From assembly GCA_028870715.1 (NCBI GenBank), contig JAGWOZ010000002.1, positions 1 through 59,449 on the forward strand: 59,449 nt of DNA, in the 5' to 3' direction. Position 1 is the stretch's first letter, and each line of letters begins with the position of its first letter. A program made the translations under genes and the position numbers. The notes below the pieces were generated by a model, which saw only the letters and a list, made by a program, of their open reading frames with translations, ran no database searches and was not told the DNA's origin. This document shows positions 7,148 to 29,880 of this stretch, in pieces. The stretch comes from Betaproteobacteria bacterium. GTDB taxonomy: Bacteria > Pseudomonadota > Gammaproteobacteria > Burkholderiales > Burkholderiaceae_C.

Positions 7148-7909
7148 TCACAGCCCTGTGAAGCGGCTCACAGCTGCGAAATACAGCCGGTCCGGCAAGA
7201 GACGCAACAAGCGCAGCCAGAGGGTGAAGCGCTTGGGAAAGTGAATGTCGAAGCGCCCCCGCTCCAGACCGCGCACGATGGCCGAAGCCGCTTGGGTCGA
7301 AGTCAGCAGCGCAGGCATGGCGAAGCTGTTTTGCGCCGTGAGCGGGGTTTCGACGAAACCGGGATTGATCACACTCACGGCAATGCCGGCCTCGCGCAAA
7401 TCGGTGTGCAGCACCTCGGCCAGATTGATGAGTGCGGCCTTGGTGGGCCCATAGGCCAGCGCCTGCGGCAAACCGCGCCAGCCCGCCACGCTGCTGACCA
7501 GCGCAACATGGCCGCTGCCTTGCGCCTGCAGCACAGGCAGCACAGCTGCCAGCGTGTGCAAGGCGCCACGGTAGTTGATGTCGTCGTGCGCCAGCGCCGA
7601 GGCCAGATCGAAGGCCGTCGCGCGCTGGGGCGCGTACGTGCCGGCGCAATACACCAGCAGGTCCAGCCCGCCAAACTCCGCTTGTATCCGCTGCATCGCA
7701 ACGTGCAAGGCGGCGGCGGCGCGCACGTCCAGCGGCAGCGCCAGGGCGCCAGTGATGGCGGCGAGCTTGTCCGCGCTGCGTGCCGATACGGCCACACGCG
7801 CGCCGCGCTCGAGCAGATCACGCGCCAGTGCGGCGCCAATGCCGCTGGAGGCGCCGACGATCCAAACCCGCTGCGCGGGCCAGTTCGTGATGGGAGGGTT
7901 CAGCGCCAT
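7148..7909 (-). CDS. Short-chain dehydrogenase/reductase (SDR)
   Basis: This is a classical NAD(P)-dependent oxidoreductase of unknown substrate. The cofactor motif WIVGASSGIGAALAR is at about residues 17-31. The structural motif LLVYCAGTYA (NAG-like), the active-site Ser in ALVSSVAGWRG, and YGPTK (YxxxK catalytic pair) follow in the right order. The start MALNPPITNW avoids overlap with the DUF3833 gene, which ends 34 bases upstream; the ORF-track start would lie inside it. The C-terminus is basic and hydrophobic (RLLRLLPDRLYF), which may bring it to the membrane. It lies in the cluster of lipid-modification genes. Confidence 0.9.
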   Translation of the reverse strand: MALNPPITNWPAQRVWIVGASSGIGAALARDLLERGARVAVSARSADKLAAITGALALPLDVRAAAALHVAMQRIQAEFGGLDLLVYCAGTYAPQRATAFDLASALAHDDINYRGALHTLAAVLPVLQAQGSGHVALVSSVAGWRGLPQALAYGPTKAALINLAEVLHTDLREAGIAVSVINPGFVETPLTAQNSFAMPALLTSTQAASAIVRGLERGRFDIHFPKRFTLWLRLLRLLPDRLYFAAVSRFTGL

Positions 7910-7943
7910 GGAGCGAAAATCATGATGGCTTGGACGACGCGCA

Positions 7944-8501
7944 TCAGGGCTTGTGGAAGGCGATGAAGATGCTGGCCACACGGAAACCGAACTTGGTCAT
8001 CACCGTGTGGTTGAGCAGGACATGGTCGCTCATCTGGTACATCCAGTCGTCCATCTGCACGTTGTAGACCGTGCCATCCACCGGCAAAGCCAGGGTGTAG
8101 TGCCAGTTAAAGGCATTGCCTTCGGCGTAGCCATGGGCGGTGCCGACGACATCGCCGGCGGTCCCCTCATAGCGTCGCTCGCCGTCTTTGCCGGGCAGGC
8201 GCGTGAGCTTCCAGATGCGTTCCTGCTTGGTGCCGTCGCCGTAGACGAAATGTTCAACAAGGGTACCGTCGCTCCCCTTCCAGGTGCCGGTGACGTCGAC
8301 ATGGAATCGCTTGATCACCTTGCCCGAGCGGTTGAACACCACGCCGTCGGCGCTCAATGGCCCGCTGAAATAGTTCTCCAGCTCCAGCGTCGGTCTCTCA
8401 CCGCGATAGTCCATCGGTGTGACGCTGGCGCACCCGCCCAGTAGTGCGGCAAACAACAAGGCGATGCCGCCCAGTCTCAGATGCGCCCAGAATGCGTTCA
8501 T
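7944..8501 (-). CDS. DUF3833-family lipoprotein
   Basis: This is a predicted lipoprotein of 185 residues. The N-terminus MNAFWAHLRLGGIALLFAALLGGC is a signal peptide ending in a lipobox. The body is beta-rich with LENYFSGPLSADGVV, RFHVDVTGTWKG and WHYTLALPVDGTVY, a pattern I associate with DUF3833 (lipocalin-like). The long ORF-track entry to 9236 is an artefact of an open frame through the MFS gene. The real start ATG overlaps the MFS stop as ATGA. DUF3833 genes commonly sit with DUF1365 and cyclopropane-synthase-like genes. The biochemical role is unknown. Confidence 0.85.
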   Translation of the reverse strand: MNAFWAHLRLGGIALLFAALLGGCASVTPMDYRGERPTLELENYFSGPLSADGVVFNRSGKVIKRFHVDVTGTWKGSDGTLVEHFVYGDGTKQERIWKLTRLPGKDGERRYEGTAGDVVGTAHGYAEGNAFNWHYTLALPVDGTVYNVQMDDWMYQMSDHVLLNHTVMTKFGFRVASIFIAFHKP

Positions 8502-9889
8502 GGCAAGGTTCTCGGTTGTTGTTGACAAAATTCGGGGTTGCCCGCGAGCCGCATCCAGCCGAACCAAAGCAGGGCGCCCGCCAGCAGCTTGAGTGCGCAA
8601 GGCAACAGGCAATACGCCATCACCAGTGGTGGCAGGGTTCCTATTGCAGGGGTGCCCGGGGTATAGCCCAGATCGGCCAGCAGCGGCAGGGCAATGCCTG
8701 CCGCCAGCGCCAAGGTCAGCTTGGTCGCCATGCCCCAGATGCCAAAGTAAGACCCCTCCAGCCGGCCACCGTGACCCAGGCTGCGGATCAACCCGGCAAG
8801 CAGCGCCGGCGGCAGCACCAGGTCGGACCCAAGCGCCAGCCCGGAGGCGGCGCACACGGCGGCATAGGCCCAGCGGTCGCCGGGTTGCAGCAGCGCCGCC
8901 CATAGAAAAACGGCGACGGTCAGCGCCATGCCCAGCAGCCAACTCGCCGCCGCACCGTAACGCCGCACCGCGCGCAACCAGAGTGGCACGCAGGCGGCGC
9001 CAAAGGCGAAGTAGATGAATAAATACAGCCCTGAGAGATCCGCCGCCTCGATGCGGTCGCGGATGAAAAACAGCACCAGCGTGGCCGGCACTGAGGCAGC
9101 CACGCCACTGGTCAGATACACCAGCAGGAGGCGACGGAAGGCCACATGGTGCAATGGCTCCAGCGCCGCGCGCAGCCCTTGTAACGTTTGCTGACCGAGG
9201 GCGTGGCGCGGCATGGGCGCGGACTTCACCAGCCACAGCCCGAGCACCAGACTGATGGTGAACACCACGGTGAAGCCAGCGGCGCCGCCGAGTTGTGTCA
9301 CGGTTGCGGCCACCAGAACGCCGGCGAGTCCCAAGGATTCGCGCCAGGCGAACGTACGGGCACGTTCGGGTTCGTTATGCCCCAGGCCTGCGCCCCACGC
9401 TTGATGCGTCACCCCCACGGCGCTGTAGCCGGCGTAGGTCAGCAGCAAAGCCAGGCCCATAACGGCGGCGAAGGCGCCGGGCTGTGGCGCGTAAGGCAAG
9501 GCAGCGGGAAAGCTCAGCAGCAATGCGAAGCCGAACACCAGCACCACACCGCTGGAGGCCATGAATCGCCAGCCGTGACCTGTGCCCATCATGCGATCGG
9601 CAAGCCTGCCGATGATGGGATCGAGCACGGCGTCGGCCATGCGCGCCAGCAACAGCACGGCGCCGAGAAAGCCGAGCGGAACGGCGTAGCGCGTGGCGAA
9701 ATGCTCGGGCAGAAAAACGTACAACGGCAGTGCGACGAAGCTCAGCGCAAACTGCGGTGCGCCATAGCGCGCCAGCTCGCCGGCGGTGTGGGGGACGGGG
9801 GCCGCACCTAGCGGAGGGTTCACCAAAACCGGCGGAGCCAAGGGTGCTGCAGCCAAGGCTTGAGCTTGGAGCGCCGATGCAGGGTTCAT
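8498..9889 (-). CDS. MFS transporter, GPH (MFS_2) type
   Basis: This is a multi-helix inner-membrane carrier of 463 residues, starting MNPASALQAQALAAAPL. Hydrophobic segments are spread along the whole length, about 12 in total. The family-type loop MADAVLDPIIGRLADRM (resembling the GPH motif with its Asp-Pro and Asp-Arg) follows helix 2. GPH-type carriers move sugars or lipids by cation symport; MelB and the lipid carrier MFSD2A share this family. The substrate is unknown. Overlaps of 4 bases (ATGA) with both neighbours show tight translational coupling in the cluster. A lipid or precursor substrate is an inference from context only. Confidence 0.87.
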   Translation of the reverse strand: MNPASALQAQALAAAPLAPPVLVNPPLGAAPVPHTAGELARYGAPQFALSFVALPLYVFLPEHFATRYAVPLGFLGAVLLLARMADAVLDPIIGRLADRMMGTGHGWRFMASSGVVLVFGFALLLSFPAALPYAPQPGAFAAVMGLALLLTYAGYSAVGVTHQAWGAGLGHNEPERARTFAWRESLGLAGVLVAATVTQLGGAAGFTVVFTISLVLGLWLVKSAPMPRHALGQQTLQGLRAALEPLHHVAFRRLLLVYLTSGVAASVPATLVLFFIRDRIEAADLSGLYLFIYFAFGAACVPLWLRAVRRYGAAASWLLGMALTVAVFLWAALLQPGDRWAYAAVCAASGLALGSDLVLPPALLAGLIRSLGHGGRLEGSYFGIWGMATKLTLALAAGIALPLLADLGYTPGTPAIGTLPPLVMAYCLLPCALKLLAGALLWFGWMRLAGNPEFCQQQPRTLP

Positions 9890-10503
9890 GGCGCCGCCTG
9901 GGCCAGCAGCGCTGTGCGCAAATCGGGCGCAATGGTTTGAGCCGAAAGCCAGATGGAAAAAAACCCCAGCGCAAAGCCATTGCCTGGCACCGTACCAACT
10001 GCTTTGCCGTTGAACAAAAACACCGTGCGCGGGCCGCCTGCGGCCGTGGGTTCGAATAGACCGCACAGCGCATCGCCATCGCTGACATTTGGGAAAATGG
10101 CGCGCATCTGCGCCAACCAGCTGTCCTGCTGCGCAGCGCTGCCAAAGCCCAGTTTGCGGATCTCTTCGATGGATTTACCGGCAATGGCCGCGCCTTTCAG
10201 ACCGCGCGCATAACGCAGCTCCAGCGCGAACGGTGCCGCGGTCAGGCGCGCAGTATCAAGACCCTGTGGGCCGACCCAGAGTGCCGCAGAGTACACCGTA
10301 AAGCCCCACCAGCGAAACACGCCGCTGCCGGCCAGGCGCACGTGTGCAAGGGTGCTGGCAACGAGTTCGGGCGGTGCTCCCACTGCCGCCGCTGCATGCG
10401 CCAAGCCAGGCGCAGCTCCCGCCGCCCATGCCATCGCGACGGCACCGCGCCAGAAACCGCGTCGGGAGAAGGTGGCGTTAGGCATGTGGCCTGAATGCAG
10501 CAT
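9886..10503 (-). CDS. Chalcone-isomerase-like exported protein
   Basis: The 205-residue protein begins with a twin-arginine-like signal (SRRGFWRGAVAMAWAAG, cleavage near AHA-AA), implying export. The mature part has the chalcone-isomerase-like pattern: LVASTLAHVRLAGSGVFRWWGFTVYSAALW, then FALELRYARGLKGAAIAGKS and a C-terminal GKAVGTVPGNGFALGFFSIWL. In bacteria these domains probably bind fatty acids rather than flavonoids (family knowledge). An alternative ATG six codons later is equally possible. It lies between the CFA-synthase-like gene (50-base gap) and the MFS gene (ATGA overlap). Confidence 0.82.
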   Translation of the reverse strand: MLHSGHMPNATFSRRGFWRGAVAMAWAAGAAPGLAHAAAAVGAPPELVASTLAHVRLAGSGVFRWWGFTVYSAALWVGPQGLDTARLTAAPFALELRYARGLKGAAIAGKSIEEIRKLGFGSAAQQDSWLAQMRAIFPNVSDGDALCGLFEPTAAGGPRTVFLFNGKAVGTVPGNGFALGFFSIWLSAQTIAPDLRTALLAQAAP

Positions 10504-10553: not shown

Positions 10554-11825
10554 TTAAGCGCTGCGGATATGCCGCAGCGTGAACTGCACCACGTCAATGG
10601 TTTGCTGCGCGAAACCAGCTTCACAGTAGGCCAGGTAGAACTCCCAGAGCAAGGTGAAGCGTTTGTCGAAGCCCTGGCCGTGGACCGCGTCGAGCTGCGC
10701 CAGATAGCGCTCGCGCCATAGCGCCAGGGTGGTGGCGTAATCCTGCCCAAAGGCCCGGGTGTCGACGACTTCAAGACCGACACGCCTGGCCTGCTCGGCA
10801 AAAGCGGTTTTGCTGGGCAACATGCCGCCCGGGAAGATGTATTGCTGAATGAAGTCGGTTCCGCGGCGGTACTGTGGAAAAATGGCTTCGGAAATGGTGA
10901 TGGTCTGGATGCAGGCGCGCCCGCCGGGTTTGAGTTGGCTGGCAACGGTCTTAAAAAAGATCGGCCAGTAGGTTTCGCCCACAGCCTCGAACATCTCGAT
11001 GGAGGCAATGCCGTCATACCCACCGGTCGGGGCGATGGCGCCCACATCGCGGTAGTCGCGCAATTCCAGTCGCACCTGCTCGGCCAGGCCGGCGGTCTGC
11101 AAGCGGTGCTGCGCATAGCCGAGTTGCTCGGTTGATAGTGTGAGCCCGTCCACCCGCAGGCCGCTGCGCGCGGCCGCCTCGGCAAAGCTGCCCCAGCCGC
11201 AGCCGATTTCCAGCACACGGCTGCCTGCTGGCAGGTCGAGTTGGCGCAGCACGCGTTCGAGCTTGGCGTCTTGCGCGGCGTGCAGGCTTTGCCCGGGCGC
11301 GCTGAATAGCGCGCTGGAATACGTCATGCCGGGGTCGAGCCAGAGTTCGTAGAAGGCGTTGCCGATGTCGTAATGCTTGTGGATGTTGTGACGGCTGCCG
11401 CTGCGCGAATTGCGGTTGAACAGATGGCGAATGCGCGAAAACAAGGTGCCCCAAGCGCTGCCGTGCAGCGCGCGCTCGACCGCCAGGCGATTGGCCAGCA
11501 GCAGCTTGAGTAGGCCGGGCAGATCCGACGTGCTCCACTGGCCTCGGAAGAAGCCTTCGGCAAAGCCGATATCGCCTCGCCGCAGCACGTTGGCGAACAC
11601 GGACCAATCATGCACATGCATGCAGGCGGGCGGCGCGCCGGTGTCATGGCCGCCGAAGCGCAAGACGCGTGCATCGGGAAGGCGCACTTCCAGGCGACCC
11701 CGATCCAGGCGTTTCAACAAGGCCAGGACCGTGCGCGCGGCAAGTGGCATGCCGGCGCCTGGACGCGGCTGCGCAAGCGCCGGTCGGTCAGTCGTTGCGG
11801 AGGCCGTGGACAAACGTGTGTTCAT
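10554..11825 (-). CDS. Cyclopropane-fatty-acyl-phospholipid synthase-like methyltransferase
   Basis: This SAM-dependent enzyme modifies unsaturated acyl chains of membrane phospholipids. The ORF-track entry of 604 residues is an open-frame artefact. The true start MNTRLSTASATT overlaps the DUF1365 stop as ATGA and gives 423 residues, the CFA length. Signature segments are KHYDIGNAFYELWLDPGMTY, SAM motif I LEIGCGWGSFAEAAA, and GYDGIASIEMFEAVG. In alphaproteobacteria, related enzymes in RpoE-ChrR regulons take part in furan fatty-acid formation. With the adjacent FAD oxidoreductase and DUF1365, either a cyclopropane or a furan/methylated acyl product is possible. The product cannot be read from sequence. 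Confidence 0.92.
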   Translation of the reverse strand: MNTRLSTASATTDRPALAQPRPGAGMPLAARTVLALLKRLDRGRLEVRLPDARVLRFGGHDTGAPPACMHVHDWSVFANVLRRGDIGFAEGFFRGQWSTSDLPGLLKLLLANRLAVERALHGSAWGTLFSRIRHLFNRNSRSGSRHNIHKHYDIGNAFYELWLDPGMTYSSALFSAPGQSLHAAQDAKLERVLRQLDLPAGSRVLEIGCGWGSFAEAAARSGLRVDGLTLSTEQLGYAQHRLQTAGLAEQVRLELRDYRDVGAIAPTGGYDGIASIEMFEAVGETYWPIFFKTVASQLKPGGRACIQTITISEAIFPQYRRGTDFIQQYIFPGGMLPSKTAFAEQARRVGLEVVDTRAFGQDYATTLALWRERYLAQLDAVHGQGFDKRFTLLWEFYLAYCEAGFAQQTIDVVQFTLRHIRSA

Positions 11826-12733
11826 CGCGTCACCCCGCTTCGAGGCGGCGCCGGCTTGGAAAAGAGGGGCACGCGCTTGCGCCACAGCTTGAGCGCCTGC
11901 CAGTGAATGCCTGCCATGACCCCCACCGTCATGAAGGGGTGAGCGAGCACTGCGGCGCGTGCGCTCGCCGCCGTGAGTGGGCGCAGCACTCCGCTGATGC
12001 TTGTCAAGACAAGGGGCCCTTGGGCATCGTCGTGGTCGATGCGCGCCACCATGCGCTCGAGTTCGAGCTCGCTGTGGCCGTGAGGCGCGACGCGACGCCG
12101 GCGCAGGAACCGAAATCGGTAGGTGCCTTCCACGGCGCAAAACGGCGAGACGTGGAATACCTTGGAGGCATGCAGTTGCTGTCCCCAGGCCACAGTTCCC
12201 AGCGCGCCGTCCGGCGATGCCGAGGTGAGCAGGTAGCAATGGCGCTCGCCGAAGGTGTTGTTGACCTCGGCAAGGATGGCGCACAGCGTACCGTCGGCCC
12301 TGTGGCAGTACCAAAAGCTCACTGGATTGAAGACGTAGCCAAGCACTCGGGGGAATGTCTGCAACCAAATCTCACCGTCGGCATCCTTGATCCCTTGCTC
12401 ATGTAACAAGCTGAGCAGCCAGGCCTGAGAGTCAGCGCCACCGTCGCCATGGTCGCAGTCGTGAAAGCTGACAAGCCCGCGCCGGTTGCGAGGGATGCAC
12501 AAAAGCTCCGGACTGGTAGCCAGGGTGCGCATGGGCAACATCAGGAAGAACACGCGATGGGTAAAACGATGGAGCGCGGGACGCAGGCGCTGGTGGTGAA
12601 CCACGCCGTGCGCGATCATGGGAGTCGCGGAAGCGCTCGCGCGCTCTGCATGGACGGCACGCGCCTGCCGCCGCGTCGCGGCGCCGCCACCTCCGAGCGG
12701 GGCGCCGGGTTGCAGGAAACTCATCGGGTTCAT
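11822..12733 (-). CDS. DUF1365-family protein
   Basis: The 303-residue protein shows DUF1365 hallmarks: HRFTHRVFFLMLPM, LVSFHDCDHGDG, RVLGYVFNPVSFWYCH and AEVNNTFGERHCYLL. The function is not known. DUF1365 genes almost always neighbour an FAD oxidoreductase and a CFA-synthase-like gene, and both are present here with ATGA overlaps on each side. That three-gene core (oxidoreductase-DUF1365-methyltransferase) suggests a single lipid-modification pathway. The N-terminal 35 residues are low-complexity and the true start could be later. Confidence 0.92.
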   Translation of the reverse strand: MNPMSFLQPGAPLGGGGAATRRQARAVHAERASASATPMIAHGVVHHQRLRPALHRFTHRVFFLMLPMRTLATSPELLCIPRNRRGLVSFHDCDHGDGGADSQAWLLSLLHEQGIKDADGEIWLQTFPRVLGYVFNPVSFWYCHRADGTLCAILAEVNNTFGERHCYLLTSASPDGALGTVAWGQQLHASKVFHVSPFCAVEGTYRFRFLRRRRVAPHGHSELELERMVARIDHDDAQGPLVLTSISGVLRPLTAASARAAVLAHPFMTVGVMAGIHWQALKLWRKRVPLFSKPAPPRSGVTR

Positions 12734-14055
12734 TGCGCCCCCGCCGGCACGGCTTCACGCACGAATGGCGCGGGGTGGCGCCGAATTTGCGTCAGCAGTG
12801 CGTCCGCCGCAGCGTAGCCCGCTTGCAAGCCATCTTCGTGGAACCCGTAGCCACACCATGCGCCGCAGTAATACGTGCGGCGCAGCCCCTGCAGTGCGCC
12901 CACATGCCTCTGGGCGGCGATCGCGGCGGCATCGAACACTGGGTGCGCGTAGCTGATATCCCTCAAGACACAGCGCGGATCAAGCTCGCGCAGGGGATTG
13001 AGGGAGACGATGACGGGTTGCTTGAAGGGCACAGGCTGCAGTTTGTTGATGAGGTAATGCAGGCACACTGTGGGACTCTCAATGCTTGCGCTTGCCTGCG
13101 CGCTTTCGTAGTTCCATGCCGCCCACGCCTTGCGGCTTCGGGGCAGCACGCGGCTATCGGTGTGGAGCACGGCGCGGTTTGGCTGATACGTGATGGCCGC
13201 GAGCACCGTTCGCTCGGCGTCGCTCGGGTCGGCGAGCAGGCGCAGGGCTTGGTCGCTGTGACAGGCGAGTACCACATGGTCAAACCATTCGGTGCCCGCG
13301 TCGGTGCTGACCTCAACACCCACATCGAAGCGCTTGATGCGCCGGACCGGCGTTTGCAACCGGGCATCGGCAAGGTGTCCAACGATGCGCTGCACATATT
13401 GCCTCGAGCCGCCACGCACGGTGAGCCATTGGGGTCTGTCTCCCACCTGCAGAAGACCGTGGCTATGACAAAAGCGCACCATGGTCGACACGGGAAAGTC
13501 CAGAATCTGCTTCGTGGGGCAGGACCAGATGCAGGCGGCCATCGGCAGGAAGTATGAGTGTGCAAATTCGTCGCTGTAGCGACCGTCTCTCAGGAACTCG
13601 CCAACGCTGCGTGTTTCGCGGCTGAGGCCCTCATGCGCCTTGGCAAGGGCAGTGGCCTCGCGGTTAAAGCGGAGGATGTCCCGGAGCATGCCCCAAAAGC
13701 GCGGGCGCAGGACATTCGAGCGCTGCGCGAAAACCGTGTTGAGGCTTGCGCCGTTCCATTCGAGCTGACCCCCTCCGGGAAGCGCCCGCTGCACAGAGAA
13801 CGACATGTCGGACTCCGCAATGGAGACGTCAAGTTGCGCGAACAACCCAAGCAGGCCCGGATAGGTGCGGCGGTTCAGGACGAGAAAGCCGGTGTCGACG
13901 GGGTAGGTGATGCCGCCCACCGTGGCATCGACGGTTTGCGCATGCCCACCGAAATGACTCCCAGCCTCGAACACGGTGACTCGCGCGTGCCCGCGTAGCT
14001 GCCACGCTGCTGCAAGGCCCGAGATCCCGGAGCCGACAATTGCCACGCGCATCAT
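12730..14055 (-). CDS. NAD(P)/FAD-dependent oxidoreductase (amine-oxidase/desaturase-like)
   Basis: This flavoprotein of 441 residues probably acts on acyl lipids. The start MMRVAIVGSGISGLAAAW places the Rossmann FAD motif (GxGxxG) at the very N-terminus, as expected; the ORF-track start adds 40 atypical residues. FAD contacts continue with VFEAGSHFGGHAQTVD and a C-terminal GAWCGYGFHEDGLQAGYAAA. The closest functional idea is the flavin desaturase/oxidoreductase that accompanies the CFA-like methyltransferase in furan fatty-acid clusters. The stop overlaps the DUF1365 start as ATGA. It is the first gene of the lipid string, 318 bases downstream of folE2. Confidence 0.88.
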   Translation of the reverse strand: MMRVAIVGSGISGLAAAWQLRGHARVTVFEAGSHFGGHAQTVDATVGGITYPVDTGFLVLNRRTYPGLLGLFAQLDVSIAESDMSFSVQRALPGGGQLEWNGASLNTVFAQRSNVLRPRFWGMLRDILRFNREATALAKAHEGLSRETRSVGEFLRDGRYSDEFAHSYFLPMAACIWSCPTKQILDFPVSTMVRFCHSHGLLQVGDRPQWLTVRGGSRQYVQRIVGHLADARLQTPVRRIKRFDVGVEVSTDAGTEWFDHVVLACHSDQALRLLADPSDAERTVLAAITYQPNRAVLHTDSRVLPRSRKAWAAWNYESAQASASIESPTVCLHYLINKLQPVPFKQPVIVSLNPLRELDPRCVLRDISYAHPVFDAAAIAAQRHVGALQGLRRTYYCGAWCGYGFHEDGLQAGYAAADALLTQIRRHPAPFVREAVPAGAQ

Positions 14056-14373
14056 GGCCTGGCGGGTGCGGAGGTCGAACGCTGCGTCGGCACGTGCTGA
14101 CGGGGCACGGTGGAGGCGCCACGGTGCAAGGGCGAGGCCGGAATGCCGCCCAGGCGCGGCACGGGGCGCCGGCAAACGCTGGGCTTTGGCGCAACCACGA
14201 TCCGCTGCGGCAAAGGAGCGGGGGTTGCTTGACCTCGGGCATCGAAGCGTTCGGCGAGGTGATGGGTCATGGCGCTGTGCACGCGTGATGGCGTGGGGGA
14301 TGGACGACGTCGCTCAGGGCAGCCCTGAGCAAACGCCTTGATGTGCCGATACGGCAAGCCGTGGCGTGTGGCT
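14056..14373. other. Upstream region of the lipid-modification gene string
   Basis: This 318-base gap between folE2 and the FAD oxidoreductase should hold the string's promoter. It is GC-rich. I found no sequence close to the RpoE-ChrR type promoter (TGATCC and TAAGA) and no copy of the TGTCC-type repeats seen upstream of gpx/litR. Frames open through the gap look like shadows. Confidence 0.5.
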
Positions 14374-15195
14374 TCATGGTGCACGCGTGAACGCGATGCG
14401 CGCGTAGGCCGAATGGTTGTGGATCGACTCGAAGTTCTCCGAAGCCACGCTGAAGGCGTCAACGCGCATGTCTGACCGAAGGGTGAGCGCCACATCGCGG
14501 ACGAGATCCTCGACGAATTTGGGGTTGTCGTAGGCGCGCTCCGTGACATGCTTTTCATCCGGGCGCTTGAGCAGGCCCCAGAGTTCGCATGACGCTGAGG
14601 TCTCCGCAATCCGGATCAGCTCCTCCAAGTGCATGTCGGCGTTGAGCTCAACTGCGAGTGTGAGGTGCGAGCGCTGGTTGTGCGCGCCGTAATTGGAAAT
14701 CTCGCGTGAGCACGGGCAAAGGCTCGTCACCGGCACCTGGACGGTCTGTTGCACCTTCGCGGCCTCACCCGCTCGGCCAGCGATGTGCAGCTTCACCTCG
14801 TAATCCAGCAGGCTGCTCACACCGGACACGGGTGCCTTTTTCTGCATGAAGTAGGTGAAGCTGAGCGTGATTTCGCCCTCCCCGGCCTCGAGGCGCTCAA
14901 GCATCCGCGCAAACATGGTGCGCAGGCTGCCAGGATGGAGGGCCTCGCCGGCGTGGGCTTCGAGGAGCTCGACGAAGCGTGACATGTGGGTGCCCTTCGT
15001 GTCGGAGGGCAGGCCAACGTACAGATCAAACGTCGCAATGCTTGGCTGGGCCGAGCCGTCCCTGGTGCGGATGAGCACCGGGTAACGAACGCCTTTGACG
15101 CCCACTTGCTGAATGGGCAGGTTTCGGCGGTCAACGGTGGACTGGATGTCGGGCAAGGGTATGGCGCTTTGGAAAATCTTTTCTGGAGCGTTCAT
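14374..15195 (-). CDS. folE2: GTP cyclohydrolase FolE2 (type IB)
   Basis: This enzyme converts GTP to 7,8-dihydroneopterin triphosphate, the first step of tetrahydrofolate and other pterin synthesis. The 273-residue form begins [19 protein letters not shown] with an AAAGGACAG ribosome-binding site just upstream, so the ORF-track start 19 codons earlier is rejected. Family motifs are [20 protein letters not shown], with the catalytic Cys, and the C-terminal [16 protein letters not shown]. FolE2 works with metals other than zinc and is often a stress or metal-limitation paralogue. Its place between gpx and the lipid string, all on one strand, suggests joint regulation. Pterins are also photolyase antenna cofactors (inference about why it is here). 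Confidence 0.93.
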
Positions 15196-15320: not shown

Positions 15321-15932
15321 TCAGCCTTTTTGCTTGAGGAGGGCTTCAATCTTGCTGATGAACGCTGTGTTTTCCGGCGTCGTCAGGCTGGAATAAACCG
15401 CCACGACCTTGCCTTCGCGGCTAATCAGATACTTGTAGAAGTTCCACTTTGGCTGGTCGCCGGAGGCGGCGATGAGCTTCTTGAAGAAGTCATTCGGATT
15501 GGGTTGCGTCACATGCGAGGGTGCAAACATGGGGAACTGAACGTTGTAGGTGTCCTTGCAGAACGCAGCGATCTTGCCTGGATCGTTCATTTCCTGGTTG
15601 AAGTCGTTGGACGGGAAGCCGAGCACCACCAACCCTTGCGGTCCATACTTGCTGTAAAGCGCCTCCAGTCCTTTGTATTGCGGCGTGAAGCCGCAATAAC
15701 TCGCGGTGTTGACGACCAGGATGACCTTTCCGGCGTACTGGCACAAGTCGATGGGCTTGTCATCCTGCAAACGTCGAACGGTTTGGTCGAGCAGGGACGG
15801 GCAGGTGCCAGATGCCATCGTTGCGGCAGTGTGCAGGGGGGGCGACGCCGGAGCGCCTGCTGCATGGGCGCACGGGTCAAGTCCGAAACAGCTCAGCAGC
15901 ACGGTGGCTGCGAACGCTATGAGTTGGCGCAT
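15321..15932 (-). CDS. Exported glutathione peroxidase (thiol peroxidase, Cys type)
   Basis: This enzyme reduces lipid or organic hydroperoxides with glutathione or thioredoxin. A signal peptide ([18 protein letters not shown], cleavage near AHA-AG) places it in the periplasm. The catalytic Cys is in [19 protein letters not shown]. The WNFYKYLI segment supplies the conserved Trp and Asn. The usual Gln motif (NQF) reads SNDFNQE, so Asp stands where Gln is common. The start ATG gives 203 residues; the ORF-track extension runs through the operator region and is rejected. It is divergent from litR and sits above the lipid-modification genes, consistent with defence against lipid peroxides. Confidence 0.9.
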
Positions 15933-15990: not shown

Positions 15991-16062
15991 TGTCCTAGAC
16001 AAAACACAAACGCGGCTGGATTTGTCCTGGACAACAAAGGGGTTTTATCCACGATTGTCCAA
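15991..16062. promoter_or_regulatory. Operator-like repeat array between gpx and litR
   Basis: Three related sites occur at a regular spacing: TGTCCTAGACA (15991-16001), the perfect inverted repeat TTGTCCTGGACAA (16022-16034), and the half site TTGTCCAA (16055-16062). The TTGTCC starts (ATGTCC at the first site) are 32 and 33 bases apart, about three helical turns. The array lies in the divergent gap between the peroxidase and the MerR/LitR-like gene. It is the natural place for LitR to control both directions. Promoter hexamers are not clear. Confidence 0.6.
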
Positions 16063-16172: not shown

Positions 16173-17135
16173 ATGAATGACCGCTCGCATTCCATTGCGT
16201 TGACCGTGAGCATTGCCGCGGTAGAGCGCGATACAGGGATCCCGAAGGACACGTTGCGTGTCTGGGAACGTCGCTACGGTTTCCCCATGCCACTGCGCGG
16301 GGCGTTGGACGAGCGCCTGTATCCGCCAGAGCAGCTCGAGAAGCTGCGCCTGATCAAGCGATTAATGAGCGCAGGGCATCGGCCTGGGCGTATCGTGAAG
16401 TTGCCCGTGGAGCAGCTTGAGGCCCTCGTGCGAGAGCAAGCCGGAGCGCACCGCGGTGCAGTACCTGCGAGCGCAACGGGAGGGGAAGTTCCCACGGCGC
16501 GCTTCTACCTGCAATTGCTCAAACAGCACGACGCCGAGCGTCTGCGCCGCGAGCTGCTGCAAAGTCAGATGCGCCTGGGTCTAGGGCGCTTCGTCGCCGA
16601 AGTCGTTGCCCCGCTCGCAACTGAAGTGGGTGAAGCGTGGATGCGTGGTGATCTCGAGATCTTCGAGGAACATCAATTTTCCGAAACCGTTCACCGCGTA
16701 CTGCGCGCGGGAATCTCTGGCGTGCCGAGCACGGACGTGCCAGCCGCAGCGCGGCCGCGCGTATTGCTCACCACGATCCCGAATGAGCCGCATGGGCTGG
16801 GCCTTCTCATGGCCGAGGCCATGCTGGTGCTGGAGGGGTGCCAATGCGTGTCATTGGGCGTGCAGACACCGGTGTGGAACATGCTTCTGGCTGCCCAGGC
16901 CCACCGCAGCGATGTGCTGGTCCTGAGTTTCTCCAGCGTGCCCACGCAGGCGCAGGTCCTGGATGCGCTGACGGAGTTGCGCGAAAAGCTTCCGGCCGGC
17001 GTCGAACTCTGGGCAGGCGGTTCGGCGCCCGCACTCAAACGCGCGCCGGCCGGGGTGCGTGTGGTGCGTGCACTCGCGTCTTTGACCGAGGCGGTCGCCG
17101 AGTGGCGCGCCAGCCATGCGCCTGCGCCCGACTGA
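16173..17135 (+). CDS. litR: MerR-family regulator with cobalamin-binding photoreceptor domain (LitR/CarH-like)
   Basis: The N-terminal MerR winged helix starts LTVSIAAVERDTGIPKDTLR and continues VWERRYGFP. A helical bundle follows with W-x9-EH (WMRGDLEIFEEH), the cap over the adenosyl group in CarH. The Rossmann-like B12 domain contains NEPHGLG, matching ExHxxG, whose His is the lower axial cobalt ligand. These two motifs are the hallmark of adenosylcobalamin light sensors that repress in the dark and release DNA on illumination. The 320-residue start at MNDRSHSIALTV is chosen for domain position, but it lacks a clear ribosome-binding site; an ATG at 16074 in frame is an alternative. It is divergent from gpx and next to the lipid cluster. 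Confidence 0.88.
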   Translation: MNDRSHSIALTVSIAAVERDTGIPKDTLRVWERRYGFPMPLRGALDERLYPPEQLEKLRLIKRLMSAGHRPGRIVKLPVEQLEALVREQAGAHRGAVPASATGGEVPTARFYLQLLKQHDAERLRRELLQSQMRLGLGRFVAEVVAPLATEVGEAWMRGDLEIFEEHQFSETVHRVLRAGISGVPSTDVPAAARPRVLLTTIPNEPHGLGLLMAEAMLVLEGCQCVSLGVQTPVWNMLLAAQAHRSDVLVLSFSSVPTQAQVLDALTELREKLPAGVELWAGGSAPALKRAPAGVRVVRALASLTEAVAEWRASHAPAPD

Positions 17136-17309: not shown

Positions 17310-18719
17310 TCATTCCGCGGTGCCGTTGCGTGTCGCCAGTGACTTCGGATCCAGAGTGACGGCGCTTGGAAAGGCGCCATCTGAAGCAGATCCAAACGCA
17401 CCGTGCTCGCCCTCTTTGAGACCCAGCGCCTCGGCGTAGACGGAGCGATGGCGCAGCAGGCTGCCAATCACAGAGGCAATCACGCACGCGGGCATCGCGG
17501 CCATCACCACGTTGTAGTTGCGGGTGATCTCGAAAACCATGATGGCGGACATGGCCGGGGCGTGGGTGGTCGCGGCCAACAGGCTGCCCATGCCCACGAG
17601 CGTCCACAGCGCCTGCGAGTGGCTCGCCTCGGGCACGAGAAAAAGATGGGACACCATCAGACCCAATGCCCCTCCCAGGGCCAACGTGGGCGTGAGCACG
17701 CCGCCAGGGATGCCTGCGGCGCTTGCTGCGGTGACAGCGATCGTGCGAAGCAGGAATACCGCCGCCACGGTGGACAGTGCCCAATGCTCAACGAGGAACG
17801 ACTGAACGACGCTGTAACCGTTGCCCCACACCTCCGGCATGAGCAATGACAGCAGCCCGATAACGAGGCCGGCCAGTCCCATGCGCAGCGGCAGGAACGT
17901 GACAAGTGACTGGTATTTGCGCCGCGAGCTGTCGAGGAGCCAGAGGAACATCGGGCCGACGAAGCCCGCCAGAAGGCCCAGAAGCGAGGCATCCACGAGA
18001 TCGATGAAGCTCACGGGCGGCACCGCGTGCGCCAAGTACAGTGGACCCGTGGCGAAAAGACTTTGCGTGGTCAGCTCACCCATCACAGCTGCCACCAGCA
18101 CGGCGGCAATCTCACGCAGCGGCAATCCTCCGAGGATGATTTCGGCGACGAACAGCGTTCCTGCGATGGGTGCATGGTAGGCGCCGGCGAAACCCGCCGC
18201 TGCGCCGCAGGCCACAATCAGCCGTTGGTGCGCCGCATCTGCGCGGCCAATCCGCCCGATGATGGATGAGATCACCGAGGCAAACTGAATCATCGTGCCT
18301 TCGCGGCCGATGGTGATGCCTCCGCTCACGGCCACCAGAGAGGAGCCCGTGCGCACGAGGTTGGGAACCAGTGGCAGCCGCCCATCGCCGACACGCACTG
18401 CCTCCATGTACTCCGGGCCGCGCGGGCGCTTGATCCAGCGGTGTCCAGCCCACATGACGAGACCACCGATCACGGCGGCGATTGGTGGAATGAGCGCCCG
18501 CTTCCATAGCGGCAATCCCGCTGCTGCCGCCACCAGGTGCTCGTGCGTGCTGTATATCCGGATGACCGCATACATCGTCTGGCGAAATCCCTCCACCGCC
18601 ACCGAGCTGACGAACCCGACGGCAGCGGCGATCAGCATCATGGGCACCATCGGGTCAAGCCCAAATCGCATTTGGGCGAGCAGTGCGTGCAGGCGGTCCG
18701 AGAAGGAGGAGTCAGACAT
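17310..18719 (-). CDS. CLC-family voltage-gated chloride channel / H+:Cl- exchanger
   Basis: This integral membrane protein of 469 residues moves chloride, in exchange for protons in many bacteria. The family blocks are VAVSGGITIGREGTMIQF (GREG-type filter segment), AAGFAGAYHAPIAGTLFVAE and AAGIPGGVLTPTLALGGA. Compared with E. coli ClcA, GKEGP reads GREGT, and no C-terminal CBS domain is present. Start: ATG at MSDSSFSDRL. It stands alone, convergent with litR (174-base gap) and divergent from the heptose adenylyltransferase. Exchanger versus channel cannot be decided here. Confidence 0.9.
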   Translation of the reverse strand: MSDSSFSDRLHALLAQMRFGLDPMVPMMLIAAAVGFVSSVAVEGFRQTMYAVIRIYSTHEHLVAAAAGLPLWKRALIPPIAAVIGGLVMWAGHRWIKRPRGPEYMEAVRVGDGRLPLVPNLVRTGSSLVAVSGGITIGREGTMIQFASVISSIIGRIGRADAAHQRLIVACGAAAGFAGAYHAPIAGTLFVAEIILGGLPLREIAAVLVAAVMGELTTQSLFATGPLYLAHAVPPVSFIDLVDASLLGLLAGFVGPMFLWLLDSSRRKYQSLVTFLPLRMGLAGLVIGLLSLLMPEVWGNGYSVVQSFLVEHWALSTVAAVFLLRTIAVTAASAAGIPGGVLTPTLALGGALGLMVSHLFLVPEASHSQALWTLVGMGSLLAATTHAPAMSAIMVFEITRNYNVVMAAMPACVIASVIGSLLRHRSVYAEALGLKEGEHGAFGSASDGAFPSAVTLDPKSLATRNGTAE

Positions 18720-18900
18720 GGCGTGTCGGGTAGGTTGCGCGCGGCCATCGCGGCGAGGCAATCAGCCAGCGCAAATGGTATCGGCTCGCGTGGCGGAAGA
18801 CCGTGAAAATTGGTGAATGACCGCAGCGCCGGCGCACGCGCATCCCGGTTTGCTGCGGCGCGCAACGGCGCGCGGCTGCGGCTTTGCGACAATGTGCGGC

Positions 18901-20993: not shown

Positions 20994-22058
20994 TCATTTC
21001 ACCTTGGGGTCGAGTTCGCCCTTGTCGTAGCGCTTGACCATGGCTTCCAGGCTCAGTGGCTTGATTTTCGAGGCGTTGCCTGCCGTGCCGAAGGCTTCAT
21101 AACGCGCCTTGCAGATGTCCTTCATGGCCTTGGTCGAGGCAATCAGGAATTTGCGTGGATCGAACTCCTTGGGATGCTGGGCCAGGTACTGGCGGGTAGC
21201 CCCGGTCGATGCCATGCGCAGATCGGTGTCGATATTGACCTTGCGCACGCCGTGTTTGATGCCCTCGACGATCTCTTCGACGGGCACCCCGTACGTCTCG
21301 CCCATGTCGCCGCCGAAAGAGTTGATGACCTTGAGCCATTCCTGCGGCACGGAGGATGAGCCATGCATCACCAGATGGGTGTTGGGAATGCGCGCGTGAA
21401 TTTCCTTGATGCGGCCAATCGCCAGAATGTCACCAGTGGGGGGGCGGGTGAACTTGTATGCCCCATGACTGGTGCCAATCGCGATGGCCAGCGCATCCAC
21501 GCGGGTCTTCTTGACGAAGTCGGCTGCCTCCTCGGGGTCGGTCAGCAGCTGGCTGTGATCGAGCACGCCTTCGGCGCCGATGCCATCCTCCTCACCAGCG
21601 GTTCCCGTTTCCAGCGAGCCAAGGCAACCGAGCTCGCCTTCGACGGACACGCCACAGGCGTGCGCCATTTCGACCGTGCGGCGCGTGACGTCGATGTTGT
21701 ACTCATAGCTCGTGGGCGTTTTCCCGTCCTCGCCCAGCGAACCATCCATCATCACGGAAGAAAAACCGAGCTGGATCGAGCGTTGGCACACGGCCGGGCT
21801 CGTCCCGTGATCCTGATGCATGCACACGGGAATATCGGGGAACTCTTCGATCGCGGCCAGGATGAGGTGGCGCAGAAAGGGGGCTCCGGCGTACTTGCGT
21901 GCGCCTGCGGAAGCCTGGACGATCACCGGGGAGTCGGTCTCGGCAGCGGCTTCCATGATGGCGCGCATCTGCTCGAGGTTGTTCACGTTGAAGGCGGGGA
22001 CGCCGTAGCTGTGCTCGGCCGCGTGGTCGAGCAGTTGACGAAGGGAAATGAGGGCCAT
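20994..22058 (-). CDS. cbbA: Class II fructose-bisphosphate/sedoheptulose-bisphosphate aldolase
   Basis: This zinc-dependent aldolase condenses triose phosphates (and erythrose-4-phosphate) in the Calvin cycle. The 354-residue product starts [20 protein letters not shown]. Metal-binding and catalytic segments are [14 protein letters not shown] (Asp and His), the [14 protein letters not shown] loop, and [10 protein letters not shown] and VMHGSSSVP (zinc His residues). The length and sequence type are those of CbbA of autotrophic betaproteobacteria. The gene follows pgk by 32 bases. Confidence 0.95.
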
Positions 22059-22090
22059 GGTGGTACTCCGGTTCGGATGGGTTGCGTGAA

Positions 22091-23296
22091 TCAGGACAGG
22101 GGCGTGCGCGAGCGCTGCTGAAGGATCTCGAAGGCGGGCAGTGTCTTGCCCTCCAGAACCTCCAGGAACGCGCCGCCTCCGGTGGAGATGTAGCCGATCT
22201 TGTCGGCAATGTCGTACTTGGCAATCGCGGCCAACGTATCGCCGCCGCCGGCGATGGAAAAGCCCTTGCTCGTTGCAACAGCTTGGGCCAGCGTTTTGGT
22301 ACCGTTGGAGAATGCATCAAACTCAAACACACCTACCGGACCGTTCCAGACGATCGTGCCCGCAGCCGTGAGCTTGTGGGCAAGCTTGGCGGCTGTCTTC
22401 GGGCCGATATCCAGGATCAGATCATCGGCAGCGACGTCGTGCGAGGCCTTCACGGTGGCTTCCGCAGTGGCGCTGAACTGCTTGGCCACGACAACGTCCT
22501 CGGGAATCGGCACTTCGGCTCCGCGCGCCTTCATCTTGTCGATGACTTGGCGGGCCTCGCTCAGCAGGTCAGGCTCGGCCAGGCTCTTGCCGATGGGCAG
22601 GCCACATGCGAGCATGAACGTATTGGCGATGCCGCCGCCAACGATCAGACCATCGACCTTGTCAGCCAGGCTCTGCAGGATCGTGAGCTTGGTCGACACC
22701 TTGGAGCCGGCCACGATGGCCATCAGCGGGCGCGCGGGATTGGCCAGCGCGCGATTGACAGCGTCGATTTCAGCGGCCAGAAGCGGGCCCGCGCAGGCGA
22801 TGGGCGCGTACTTCGCGATCCCGTATGTGCTGGCCTCGGCACGATGCGCAGTGCCGAAGGCGTCGTGCACGAAGATGTCGCAGAGCTTGGCCATCTTCTG
22901 CGCGAGCGCATCATCGTTCTTCTTCTCGCCCTTGTTGAGCCTGCAGTTTTCAAGCAACACGACGTCGCCGGGATAGACCTGAAAGCCACCATCCACCCAG
23001 TTGCTCACCAGCGGCACCGGGCGTCCGAGCAACTCGGACAGGCGGCGAGCAACCGGGGCGAGGGAATCTTCGGGCTTGAATTCGCCCTCGGTGGGCCGCC
23101 CAAGGTGCGACGTGACCATGACGGCGGCGCCGGCATTGAGGGCCATCTGAATGGCGGGCACCGAGGCCCGAACCCGCGTGTCCTCGGTAATTTCACCTGT
23201 GGCGCTGAGCGGTACGTTCAGGTCGGCACGTATGAAGACGCGCTTGTCCTGCGCGAACCCGCGTTTGCAGACTTCTTCGAAGGTCAGGATATGCAT
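22091..23296 (-). CDS. cbbK: Phosphoglycerate kinase
   Basis: This enzyme phosphorylates 3-phosphoglycerate with ATP in the Calvin cycle and runs in reverse in glycolysis. The 401-residue, two-domain protein has [19 protein letters not shown] at the N-terminus, then [15 protein letters not shown] and [15 protein letters not shown]. The nucleotide-binding C-terminal segment reads [19 protein letters not shown] and [15 protein letters not shown]. It sits between gap and fba in the cbb operon, which argues that it serves CO2 fixation; a second housekeeping copy elsewhere is possible. Confidence 0.95.
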
Positions 23297-23378
23297 GGAG
23301 CTCTTTTCAATTCAGGCGGACTGCTGAAGGCGCGTGCCGCAACGCGCAGAAAGCGCGGTACGCGGCTGTTCAACAGAA

Positions 23379-25167
<1,789 letters not shown>

Positions 25168-25190
25168 AGTCAACGCACTCACTCCAAGCC

Positions 25191-27284
25191 TCAATTCATC
25201 GAACGCACGACGTTGCTGTCCTCGGACTCGTGACGCGAAACATGCATGCGCAACACGGCCTGGGCGACCTCGGCCGTATGCTCGGGGGTGATCTTGAAAT
25301 GCTTGTAGAGATCGATGGCGGGCGCCGATTCGCCAAACGCGGCAATACCGACAACGCCGCCCGACAATCCCACATACTTACGCCAGAAATCGGGCTGCGC
25401 GGCTTCGACTGCCACGCGTGGCACATACAGCGGTAGCACGGTATTGCGGAAGGCCTCGTCTTGCCGGTCAAACACATTCGTACAGGGCATGGAGACAACG
25501 CGCGCGGCCACGCCGGCCTCGGCCAGCAGTTTTTGCGCCTTGAGCGCGATTTCGACCTCGGAACCGGTGCCAATCAACACCACCTGGGGCTGGCCGCCAG
25601 CCGCCTCCGACAGCACGTAAGCGCCGCGCGCAATCTGGGCTTCGGCGCCCTCGGGATGCTGCGACGCCACCAGATTCTGACGCGATAGGAGCAGGGCGCT
25701 CGGCCCGGTCTTGCGCTCCACTGCGCATTTCCAGGCGACTGCCGTTTCCAGCACGTCAGCCGGACGCCAGACATCCAGGTTGGGGATCAGCCGAAGACTC
25801 GGCGCCTGCTCGATGGCCTGGTGCGTGGGACCGTCCTCGCCAAGGCCAATCGAGTCGTGCGAGAAGACGTGCACCACGCGCTGTTTCATCAGCGCGCTCA
25901 TGCGCACCGCGTTGCGCGAGTAGTCGGAAAACATCAAAAAGGTCCCACCATAGGGCAGGAAGCCGCCGTGCAGTGACATACCGCTCATCATGGCGGCCAT
26001 GCCGAATTCACGCACGCCATAGGAAAGGTAGTTCACCGGCTCGCCATCCTTGGCGCCGGCCCAGGGCTTGGACCCCTTCACCGCCGTCAGATTGGATCCT
26101 GTGAGGTCGGCGGAACCGCCAAACATCCCTGGCAAGGCCGGCACGAGGGTTTCCAGCGCGATCTGCGACGCCTTGCGCGTGGCGGTGGAAGCCGTCACGC
26201 CACGCGCGGACGCGTATAGGGCCTGAACGGTTTGCGCCCAGTCGGCGGGGAGATCGCCACTCATGCGGCGCGTGAACTCGGCAGCGAGCTCGGGGTGAGC
26301 CTTGGCGTAGGCGGCGAACCGGTCGTTCCAGTCGGCCTCCAGCTTGCTGCCATGGCCGCGTGCATTCCATGCGTCGTAGATATCTTGCGGAATCTCGAAC
26401 GGCCCGTACGTCCACCCCAGAGCATGACGCGTGGCCTGCGCCTCCGCAGGCCCCAACGCCGACCCATGCACGTCGTGGGTCCCGGCCTTGTGCGGCGAGC
26501 CCCACCCGATCGTGGTCTGGCAGATGATGAGCGTGGGCTTGTCAGCGCTTGTCTTCGCCTCCGCAGTCGCTTGCTCCACGGCCTGTGCATCATGGCCGTC
26601 GATCGGGCCGATCACGTTCCAGCCGTAGGACTGGAAACGCAACTTGGTGTTGTCGGTAAACCAGTGCTCGACATGCCCGTCAATGGAAATGCCATTGTCG
26701 TCGTAATAGGCGATGAGCTTGTTGAGCTTGAGCGTACCCGCCAGCGAGCAGGCCTCGTGGCTGATGCCTTCCATCAGACAGCCGTCGCCCACGAACACAT
26801 AGGTGTGGTGGTTCACGATGGTGTGGCCGGGCTGATTGAACCTGCGGCCCAGCATCTGTTCGGCGAACGCCATACCCACGGCGTTGGCGAGTCCTTGACC
26901 GAGCGGGCCGGTCGTGGTCTCAACACCCGGCGTGTACCCTACTTCGGGATGACCCGGGGTCTTGCTGTGCAACTGGCGGAAGCGTTTGAGCTCCTCGATG
27001 GGCAGGTCATAGCCCGTGAGATGCAGCAGCGCGTAGATCAGCATCGAGCCATGGCCGTTCGACAACACGAAACGATCGCGGTCGACCCAGTGCGGGTTTG
27101 CCGGATTGTGATGCAGGTGGTTTCGCCACAGCACCTCGGCAATATCGGCCATGCCCATGGGCGCGCCGGGGTGACCGGATTTGGCAGCCTCCACTCCGTC
27201 GATGGCGAGAAAGCGTATGGCGTTGGCAAGACGGCGACGTTGCGTGGGATCAATGACGGGGAAAAGTGCGTTGTGCGCGTTCAT
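25191..27284 (-). CDS. cbbT: Transketolase
   Basis: This thiamine-diphosphate enzyme rearranges sugar phosphates in the regenerative phase of the Calvin cycle. The start [18 protein letters not shown] gives 697 residues, within the usual range; the ORF-track extension into the prk region is rejected. Key segments are [18 protein letters not shown], ThDP motif [18 protein letters not shown] ending in DDNGISIDG, and the pyrimidine-binding [17 protein letters not shown]. The C-terminal domain shows [20 protein letters not shown]. It is the third gene of the cbb operon. Confidence 0.95.
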
Positions 27285-27322
27285 GGGTTCATTCTCGCGA
27301 ATTGGGGGACGACAAACCGGTG

Positions 27323-28198
27323 TCAGCCGGCGCGGCGCTTGATGTCCATCAGGCGCAGGATCATGGGGGTGAAGATGAGCTGCATCGCCAATCCCATCTT
27401 GCCACCGGGCACCACGAGCGTATTGGGCCGCGTCATCCATGAATCGTGCAGCATGGAGATGAGGTAGGGGAAATCAATGCCATGCGGATCGGCAAACCGG
27501 ATCACGACCATGCTCTCATCTAGGCTCGGGATGTCCTTGGCGATGAACGGATTGGACGTATCCACGGTCGGAACCCGCTGAAAGTTCACATGCGTGCGCG
27601 AAAACTGCGGCGCGATGTGGTGCACATAGTCGGGCATGCGGCGCAGGATCGTGTCCATGACGGCCTCCTGCGAGTAGCCACGCTGGACTTGGTCGCGGTG
27701 CAACTTCTGGATCCACTCCAGGTTGATGATGGGCACCACGCCCACCAGAAGATCGACCTGTTTGGCAACGTTGATCGCCTCATCGGCGTAGCCCCCGTGG
27801 AGGCCTTCGTAGAACATGAGATCCGAACTTGCGGTGATGTCTTTCCACGGCGTGAAATTGCCCGGCTCGACGCCGAACTCCGCCGATTCGCCAGCATCGT
27901 GAATGTATTTGCGCACCTTGCCGCCGCCTGTGGCGCCGTAGGTCTTGAAGAGATCCTCCAGCTCACCCAGCAGGTTGGCATCCGGCCCGAAATGGCTGAA
28001 ATTGCGGTTGCCCGCAAGTTCCTGCTTTTTCATTTCCTCCCGCATTTCCGTGCGGTTGTACTTGTGGAAGGAGTCACCCTCGATAATCTGCGCGGTAAGC
28101 TTTTCGCGTCGAAAGATGTGCTGGAAACTGCGCATCACCGTGGTGGTGCCGGCTCCCGACGAGCCCGTGATGGCGATGATGGGGTGTTTAGCTGACAT
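27323..28198 (-). CDS. cbbP: Phosphoribulokinase
   Basis: PRK makes ribulose-1,5-bisphosphate from ribulose-5-phosphate and ATP and is diagnostic of the Calvin cycle. The start [20 protein letters not shown] has the P-loop directly at the N-terminus. The 291-residue length is that of bacterial class I PRK. Other conserved blocks are [36 protein letters not shown] and [20 protein letters not shown]. It lies between fbp and tkt. No RuBisCO gene is in the window, so the substrate produced here must be used by RuBisCO encoded elsewhere. Confidence 0.96.
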
Positions 28199-28310
28199 GG
28201 CGTGAAGGTACGAAAGGAATAATCCGGAAAAGCTGAAGGCAGCATCCGCCAACCGTAGCGTGCGGATGCTCGATGTCTCGTGTACTGGCAATACCAGCGC
28301 GCAGCAGGGC

Positions 28311-29390
28311 TCAGGCCCGCACGTCGTCGTTGTACAGGGAACGATCCTTGAACAGCGGCGAGGCGAAGGGCTTGTCTTCCCCGCTATCGTATTCCCGGTG
28401 GTAGCGCTCCAGGCGCTCAATCTCGTTTCTCGAGCCCAACATCACCGGCACGCGTTGGTGCAGTGACGTTGGCTGCACCGTGAGAATGCGGCCACGGCCA
28501 GTGGAGGCGGCCCCTCCGGCCTGCTCGATGATGAAGGCGATGGGATTGGCCTCGTACATCAGGCGCAGGCGGCCTGGCTTGCTTGGATCCTTGGCATCCT
28601 TCGGGTACATGAAAATCCCTCCGCGCATGAGGATGCGGTGCACGTCAGCGACCATGGAGGCGATCCAGCGGGTGTTGAAATCGCGTCCGCGGTCGCCGGT
28701 CTTGCCGGCCTTGCATTCGGCGACATAGCGCTGCACCGGCGGCTCCCAGAACCGCTCGTTGCTGCTGTTGATCGCATATTCGACCGTATCGGCCGGAATC
28801 TGCAGGTCGGGATGGGTGAGAATGAAATTGCCGATCTCACGATCAAGCGTAAAACCATGCGTTCCCTTGCCAACGGTCAGGACCATCATGGTCGACGGAC
28901 CGTAGATGGCATAGCCGGCCGCGACTTGTTCCACGCCCGGGCGCAGGTAATCGGCCACCGTGGGGTCACCGATCTTGCCATGGCGCAGGACGGAGAAAAT
29001 GGTTCCCACCGACACGTTGACGTCGATGTTGGACGAACCGTCGAGCGGATCGAACACGAGGAGGTAAGGACCGCGCTCAAACTCCTTCGGCAGCGTGTAG
29101 GGGTCATCCATTTCCTCGGACGCCATCCCCGCCACCAATCCGCCCCATTCGCAGGCCTGGATCATCGCATCGTTGGAAAGCACGTCCAGCTTTTTCTGGG
29201 TTTCGCCCTGCACGTTCTCGGTGCCCAACGAGCCGAGGAATCCACCGAGCGCGCCTTTGGCTGTCATCGAGGCGATGGCCTTGACGGCGGCCGTGACATC
29301 GATCAGGAGCGCGGCCAGGTCGGACTGGTCTTCTGAGCCGCGGAGTTGTTCGATGAGAAATTTGGAAATGGTGGTGCGGCCTTGCTGCAT
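28311..29390 (-). CDS. cbbF: Fructose-1,6-bisphosphatase, class I
   Basis: This Mg-dependent phosphatase acts on fructose- and probably sedoheptulose-bisphosphate in the Calvin cycle. The 359-residue product starts [15 protein letters not shown]. The active-site block is [20 protein letters not shown], followed by [10 protein letters not shown]. The C-terminal [10 protein letters not shown] and [20 protein letters not shown] are family landmarks. It is the first gene of the operon, about 550 bases from cbbR, and appears to carry an unusually long leader. Confidence 0.95.
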
Positions 29391-29462
29391 GATGAGTCTC
29401 CAGGTTCGAAAACAGAACGGCAAGCCCCGCCAGGGGGCTGAGGCACTCAGGGCGCGCTGCCC

Positions 29463-29493
29463 TTCGGTCCTGCGCGTGGCGCACAGGACCGAA
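29463..29493. repeat. Perfect 10-bp inverted repeat in the cbb leader
   Basis: TTCGGTCCTG and CAGGACCGAA flank an 11-base GC-rich loop. It lies about 75 bases upstream of the cbbF start codon, inside the predicted leader. It has no T-tract in the cbbF direction. Confidence 0.55.
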
Positions 29494-29842: not shown

Positions 29843-29880
29843 GGATTGCCACCGTTTCAGGTGCAACTCTCTTGCGTGTA

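Follow-up and report, generated by a model that had tools for sequence, protein, structure and literature searches.

A predicted adenosylcobalamin-dependent LitR/CarH-type regulator of a betaproteobacterial photoprotective gene cluster lacks the His132 ligand of Thermus CarH

The window analysed here is a 59,449-nucleotide stretch of contig JAGWOZ010000002.1 from a Betaproteobacteria bacterium, and it encodes a MerR-type regulator, LitR, next to a divergent gene cluster. We consider it likely, from sequence comparison, that LitR is a class-I LitR/CarH-type repressor of this cluster that carries adenosylcobalamin (AdoCbl), is released by light and works without the His132 ligand switch of Thermus thermophilus CarH (TtCarH). 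The pocket residues, the fold, the B12 genes of the genome, the photo-oxidative type of the cluster and a conserved operator together make the AdoCbl light switch the best-supported function. The sequence-only reading had predicted such a switch from two intact motifs, and this prediction was supported in part; the standard CarH mechanism is not implied by these motifs, because LitR has other residues in place of TtCarH His132, Arg176 and Asp201.

The features of the locus are given in Table 1. An ATG at 16074 was rejected as the start of litR; alignments with many relatives begin at 16173, and the region surrounding 16074 resembles a conserved promoter element. Pfam and the AlphaFold model (pLDDT 87.7) gave the domain order of a MerR DNA-binding domain, a four-helix bundle and a Rossmann B12-binding domain. 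The MerR_1 and B12-binding_2 families scored above their cut-offs and the B12-binding domain slightly below (30.2 bits against 32.1). The top PDB sequence match was T. thermophilus CarH (1.6e-21) and the top fold match of the model was CarH 5c8d (5.3e-17); the B12-binding part alone fitted its fold matches with rmsd mostly of 3-4 A and target TM-scores of about 0.8. Thus, by Pfam scores and PDB sequence and fold matches, the resemblance of the motifs to CarH is homology and not chance.

Table 1. Features of the litR locus (positions in the window).
Feature	Position	Strand	Basis or remark
litR/carH-like gene, 320 aa	16173..17135	+	translation without internal stops, Pfam, CarH sequence and fold matches
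W156-x9-E166-H167 (W156-MRGDLEIFE-E166-H167), predicted adenosyl-side pocket	16638..16673	+	W and E in 92/92, H in 91/92 relatives
Met157 codon at the TtCarH His132 position, directly after Trp	16641..16643	+	His in 0/92 relatives
E205-x-H207-x-x-G210 (in N204-E205-P206-H207-G208-L209-G210), predicted lower axial His ligand	16785..16802	+	92/92 relatives
Operator copy 1 (predicted), ATGTCCTAGACAA	15990..16002	.	conserved upstream of litR in relatives
Operator copy 2 (predicted), perfect palindrome TTGTCCTGGACAA	16022..16034	.	32 bp from copy 1
Possible extra half-site TGGACA, weaker	16056..16061	-	
Glutathione peroxidase (GPx), first gene of divergent cluster	15321..15932	-	Pfam GSHPx, synteny
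folE2, GTP cyclohydrolase	14374..15195	-	NCBIfam FolE2 above cut-off
FAD-dependent amine-oxidase-type oxidoreductase, candidate UfaD by position only	12730..14055	-	Pfam, synteny
DUF1365 protein (domain of UfaO)	11822..12733	-	Pfam 258 bits; PMC7380195
CFA-type SAM methyltransferase, UfaM-like	10554..11825	-	Pfam CMAS
Chalcone-isomerase-like protein	9886..10503	-	Pfam, synteny
MFS_2 transporter	8498..9889	-	Pfam
DUF3833 protein	7944..8501	-	Pfam
Short-chain dehydrogenase, likely last cluster gene, start uncertain	7148..7981	-	Pfam adh_short; same place in relative locus L147

The Wx9EH and ExHxxG motifs had been described as intact and in the order of CarH, and the 320-residue translation confirmed both. 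A longer B12 motif that has been described in CarH proteins, D/ExHx2G/P-x41-SxT/V-x22-27-GG (PMC9304148), also fits in spacing (E205-H207-G210, x41, SxS, x27, GG), with Ser replacing its Thr/Val. The RxWERRY recognition helix is present as R29-V-W31-E-R-R-Y35 and is found in 91 of 92 relatives. Wx9EH and ExHxxG occur together in 91 of the 92 distinct relatives, which are mostly Burkholderiales of common ancestry, so that the conservation counts are not independent; their joint retention, earlier taken as distinctive, is therefore the rule in this group.

The residue next to the pocket Trp behaves differently. The equivalents of TtCarH W131, E141 and H177 are found in all 92 relatives and that of H142 in 91, while the adjacent position 132 is variable, being Met, Ala, Leu, Ile, Val, Thr or Ser with at least 27 changes on a tree of 109 sequences that includes distant relatives. 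In addition, Arg176 and Asp201, which form the dimer salt bridge of TtCarH, correspond to Pro206 and Gln231 in LitR, and among the 92 relatives neither the Arg nor the Asp occurs at all and Gln231 is shared by 91. From the dimer-dimer interface of TtCarH, Gly192 is kept (89/92 relatives) and Gly160 is Pro, as it is in 81 of the 92; a published survey found Gly160 or Gly192 often replaced by Pro in myxobacterial CarHs as well. Gly174 of the GxxH signature is Asn in LitR (Gly in 27 and non-Gly in 65 of the 92). The SignatureFinder signature of light-responsive B12 domains consists of GxxW, EH, GxxH and GxxxP (GxxH: PMC11796333), and LitR has three of these elements with NxxH in place of GxxH and so falls outside it. 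The 65 relatives without GxxH still keep the Trp, the Glu and the axial His, and the published GxxH mining signature probably undercounts such B12 light receptors. Furthermore, LitR scored 97 bits with the NCBIfam CarH equivalog NF052513, far below the cut-off of 400, which weighs against the light-switch reading.

Variation at position 132 was noted previously (PMC11796333), and a published survey reported His132 in many, not all, CarHs, including many from myxobacteria; what is new here is how widely and uniformly it is missing from a clade that has a conserved light-type cluster. In the small sample of distant sequences, His132 was seen in Thermus and in one divergent Gemmatirosa protein only, the latter without the pocket residues. 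A phylum-wide sample gave matches in 9 of 399 genomes, too few for a frequency of His132 across phyla.

In the light state of TtCarH, cobalt is ligated by His132, and this residue has been reported to be critical for the release of the tetramer (PMC10442372). For the TtCarH H132A variant, one group saw disassembly in light and another found it mostly tetrameric in light (both in PMC10442372). The latter report speaks against the light-switch reading of LitR, as the missing His132 could blunt its response; the replaced salt-bridge residues mean that its oligomerisation may differ, too. A variant of the same AdoCbl light switch would keep a bis-His light state by using His167 (TtCarH His142) as the upper cobalt ligand instead of His132. 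The retention of His167 in 91 of 92 relatives suits this idea, but H142 is also kept in proteins having His132, where holding of the adenosyl group explains its conservation. The light state of TtCarH H132A was hydroxo-Co(III) and not H142-ligated (PMC10442372), and SasPcob, the closest precedent, is a monomer with water/hydroxide Co(III) in light and no bis-His ligation (PMC10979010). The substitution of His132 by His167 is thus considered unlikely, and a switch that dispenses with bis-His ligation is preferred.

The litR gene and the divergent cluster are separated by a common 240-bp intergenic region with a conserved palindrome, TTGTCC-W-GGACAA. With up to two mismatches, it was found upstream of litR in 85 of 95 distinct loci, where shuffled sequences would give about 0.9, and downstream in 0 of 95. 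The consensus from 58 representatives less than 80% identical was TTTGTCC-W-GGACAAA. The spacings of the copies concentrate at 31-33, 52-55 and 62-65 bp, equal to 3, 5 and 6 helical turns, with a vector strength of 0.76 at 10.5 bp for 50 spacings that are not all independent. The known operators of Thermus and Bacillus CarH are tandem 11-bp TnnACA repeats, as described in a later survey. Tandem 11-bp repeats of the form nnnnTnnACAn were absent from the litR intergenic region, and TnnACA occurred only at 15996 and 16028 on the plus strand and at 16061 on the minus strand; the half-site TGGACA itself conforms to TnnACA. A scan of this region for the sigma-70 consensus gave no match. When the whole genome was searched, one more perfect match to a looser pattern of the palindrome was found within a predicted reading frame (C132). 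The other near-matches inspected were mostly inside reading frames with no clear promoter, so the regulon may be limited to the litR locus. The only DNA photolyase match in the genome (C87) had no operator-like site with up to two mismatches in the 6 kb examined.

The divergent cluster appears, by its gene content, to be of the photo-oxidative-stress type and is mostly kept across Burkholderiales. The FAD oxidoreductase, DUF1365, CFA, chalcone-isomerase-like, MFS and DUF3833 genes adjoin litR in the same order and orientation in most of the roughly 100 relatives, and these six genes recur on a Rhodocyclales plasmid too; the presence of GPx and folE2 varies. In some species of the same genus, only part of the set adjoins litR. 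UfaO, which has the DUF1365 domain, and UfaM belong to the enzymes of furan fatty acids, lipids that give protection from singlet oxygen (PMC7380195). Illumination of Pseudomonas mendocina induces litR (pmlR1), phrB and ufaM, and to a lesser degree fol genes (PMC9758184). A stretch of about 320 bp (14056-14373) that separates folE2 from the FAD oxidase has no recognised gene; it seems to exceed the corresponding gap in relatives such as L038 and possibly holds a decayed or very small gene. Downstream of litR, a convergent ClC chloride channel gene (17310-18761) was found, which is also present in Thiomonas-like relatives and absent from the other Burkholderiales examined. On a plasmid of Comamonas endophytica (L146, 5369-11504), a litR homologue is flanked on each side by a methyl-accepting chemotaxis gene, and a BLUF gene is close by; this arrangement suggests light control of motility there instead of lipid protection.

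The source genome is 86.5% complete and has near relatives including Thiomonas delicata, whose strain DSM 16361 has a relative of LitR with 70% identity. A single LitR-like gene was found in it, along with AdoCbl-related genes encoding BtuR/CobO and CobS and four cobalamin riboswitches, by which AdoCbl is probably available to the cell. The same pocket could serve a sensor of B12 status, in which bound AdoCbl would signal the supply of the coenzyme and light would play no part in the cell. The pocket is a predictor of AdoCbl binding but no proof of a response to light, and the standard light-state ligand and the TtCarH dimer salt bridge are missing, both of which leave room for such a sensor; but the cluster contains no recognised B12-dependent enzyme or B12-synthesis gene and resembles light-induced and singlet-oxygen gene sets, and AdoCbl has a photolabile Co-C bond anyway. 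We therefore hold a pure B12-status sensor to be quite improbable.

The source organism had been presumed to be a chemolithoautotroph, and its autotrophy is plausible because the window carries Calvin-cycle-type genes at 20994-31009 (FBP aldolase, PGK, GAPDH, transketolase and FBPase, with a divergent cbbR-like LysR regulator among them) and RuBisCO genes are found elsewhere in the genome, outside the window. A light sensor had seemed puzzling in such an organism; the puzzle fades with the finding that litR lies beside photoprotection genes in most of the betaproteobacterial clade, whether the members are chemolithoautotrophs or not. In such an organism, light control would serve to protect membrane and redox functions under illumination. 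The window also contains a 1464-aa open frame on the plus strand (35514-39908).

Taken as a light-released repressor, LitR would function as follows. In the dark, AdoCbl would be bound base-off through His207 with the adenosyl group held by Trp156 and Glu166/His167, and this binding is expected to stabilise a DNA-binding oligomer. The oligomer would occupy the helically phased palindromes between litR and the cluster and, judging from their position and conservation, repress both directions. Blue or green light would cleave the Co-C bond, the adenosyl group would depart and the oligomer would loosen without a His132 ligand switch, since that position is Met; the cobalt would most likely end as water/hydroxide-Co(III). 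The derepressed genes would yield protective lipids, a folate/pterin enzyme and a peroxidase. AdoCbl binding, light release, the oligomer change and derepression are all deduced here from sequence.

Beyond this locus, we see an even chance that CarH-type photoreceptors include a large class, mostly from betaproteobacteria, which switches without the His132 ligand switch and without the Arg-Asp dimer salt bridge on helically phased palindromes. If true, bis-His ligation would be confined to certain lineages and would not be at the core of B12 light sensing. The need for the His132 bis-His switch is disputed in the reports on TtCarH H132A (PMC10442372), and a natural clade that has the AdoCbl pocket, a photoprotective cluster and an operator and never His132 makes this dispute directly testable. 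Searches for B12 light sensors would gain a wider signature than the present one, by which most of the clade is missed, and these proteins could serve as optogenetic parts that differ in their light state.

Among known systems, TtCarH (PDB 5C8D/5C8E/5C8F) shares with LitR the domain order, the fold, Wx9EH, the axial-His motif and the RxWERRY helix, and its gene, too, is divergent from protective genes (phytoene synthase and photolyase). The two proteins are about 30% identical and differ at His132 (Met), Arg176 (Pro), Asp201 (Gln), Gly160 (Pro) and Gly174 (Asn). The LitR cluster has no carotenoid gene, unlike the surroundings of TtCarH, and its predicted operator consists of spaced palindromes, whereas that of TtCarH is described as tandem 11-bp repeats.

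For class II LitRs (PplR1-3 of Pseudomonas putida and PmlR1/2 of P. mendocina), later work describes repression of a similar light-inducible cluster, with an FAD oxidoreductase, UfaM, a short-chain dehydrogenase and fol genes in common, and symmetric TGTnCA-type sites like those of LitR, written TGTACA-N12-TGTACA against the TTGTCC-W-GGACAA pairs at litR. According to the same work, class II proteins keep the four-helix bundle only, whereas LitR has the Rossmann B12 domain. PmlR2 is released by a short LOV protein (PMC9758184), and control of similar genes in this manner raises the thought that LitR is class-II-like, set by a partner photoreceptor such as a short LOV protein or by another stress signal, with a vestigial B12 domain. 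Among the 92 relatives, however, the axial His and the residues in contact with AdoCbl are kept (the H142 equivalent in 91), which is unexpected for a vestigial domain, and no partner photoreceptor gene was seen at the locus next to litR, making this reading very unlikely. The AdoCbl-binding light switch finds closer parallels in the B12 domains of SasPcob and CtMerR, which share with LitR the AdoCbl photoreceptor pocket and a non-His residue at position 132 and have no bis-His light state. CtMerR, with Arg at position 132, loses the adenosyl group in light (PMC11796333), and is only distantly related to LitR (1.8e-05); SasPcob is a bilin-binding photocobilin without a MerR domain, unlike LitR. 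The B12-independent paralogue CarA of Myxococcus has, as LitR, a MerR domain and a B12-type domain with the axial-His motif, but it is without the Trp of Wx9EH, which LitR retains as Trp156.
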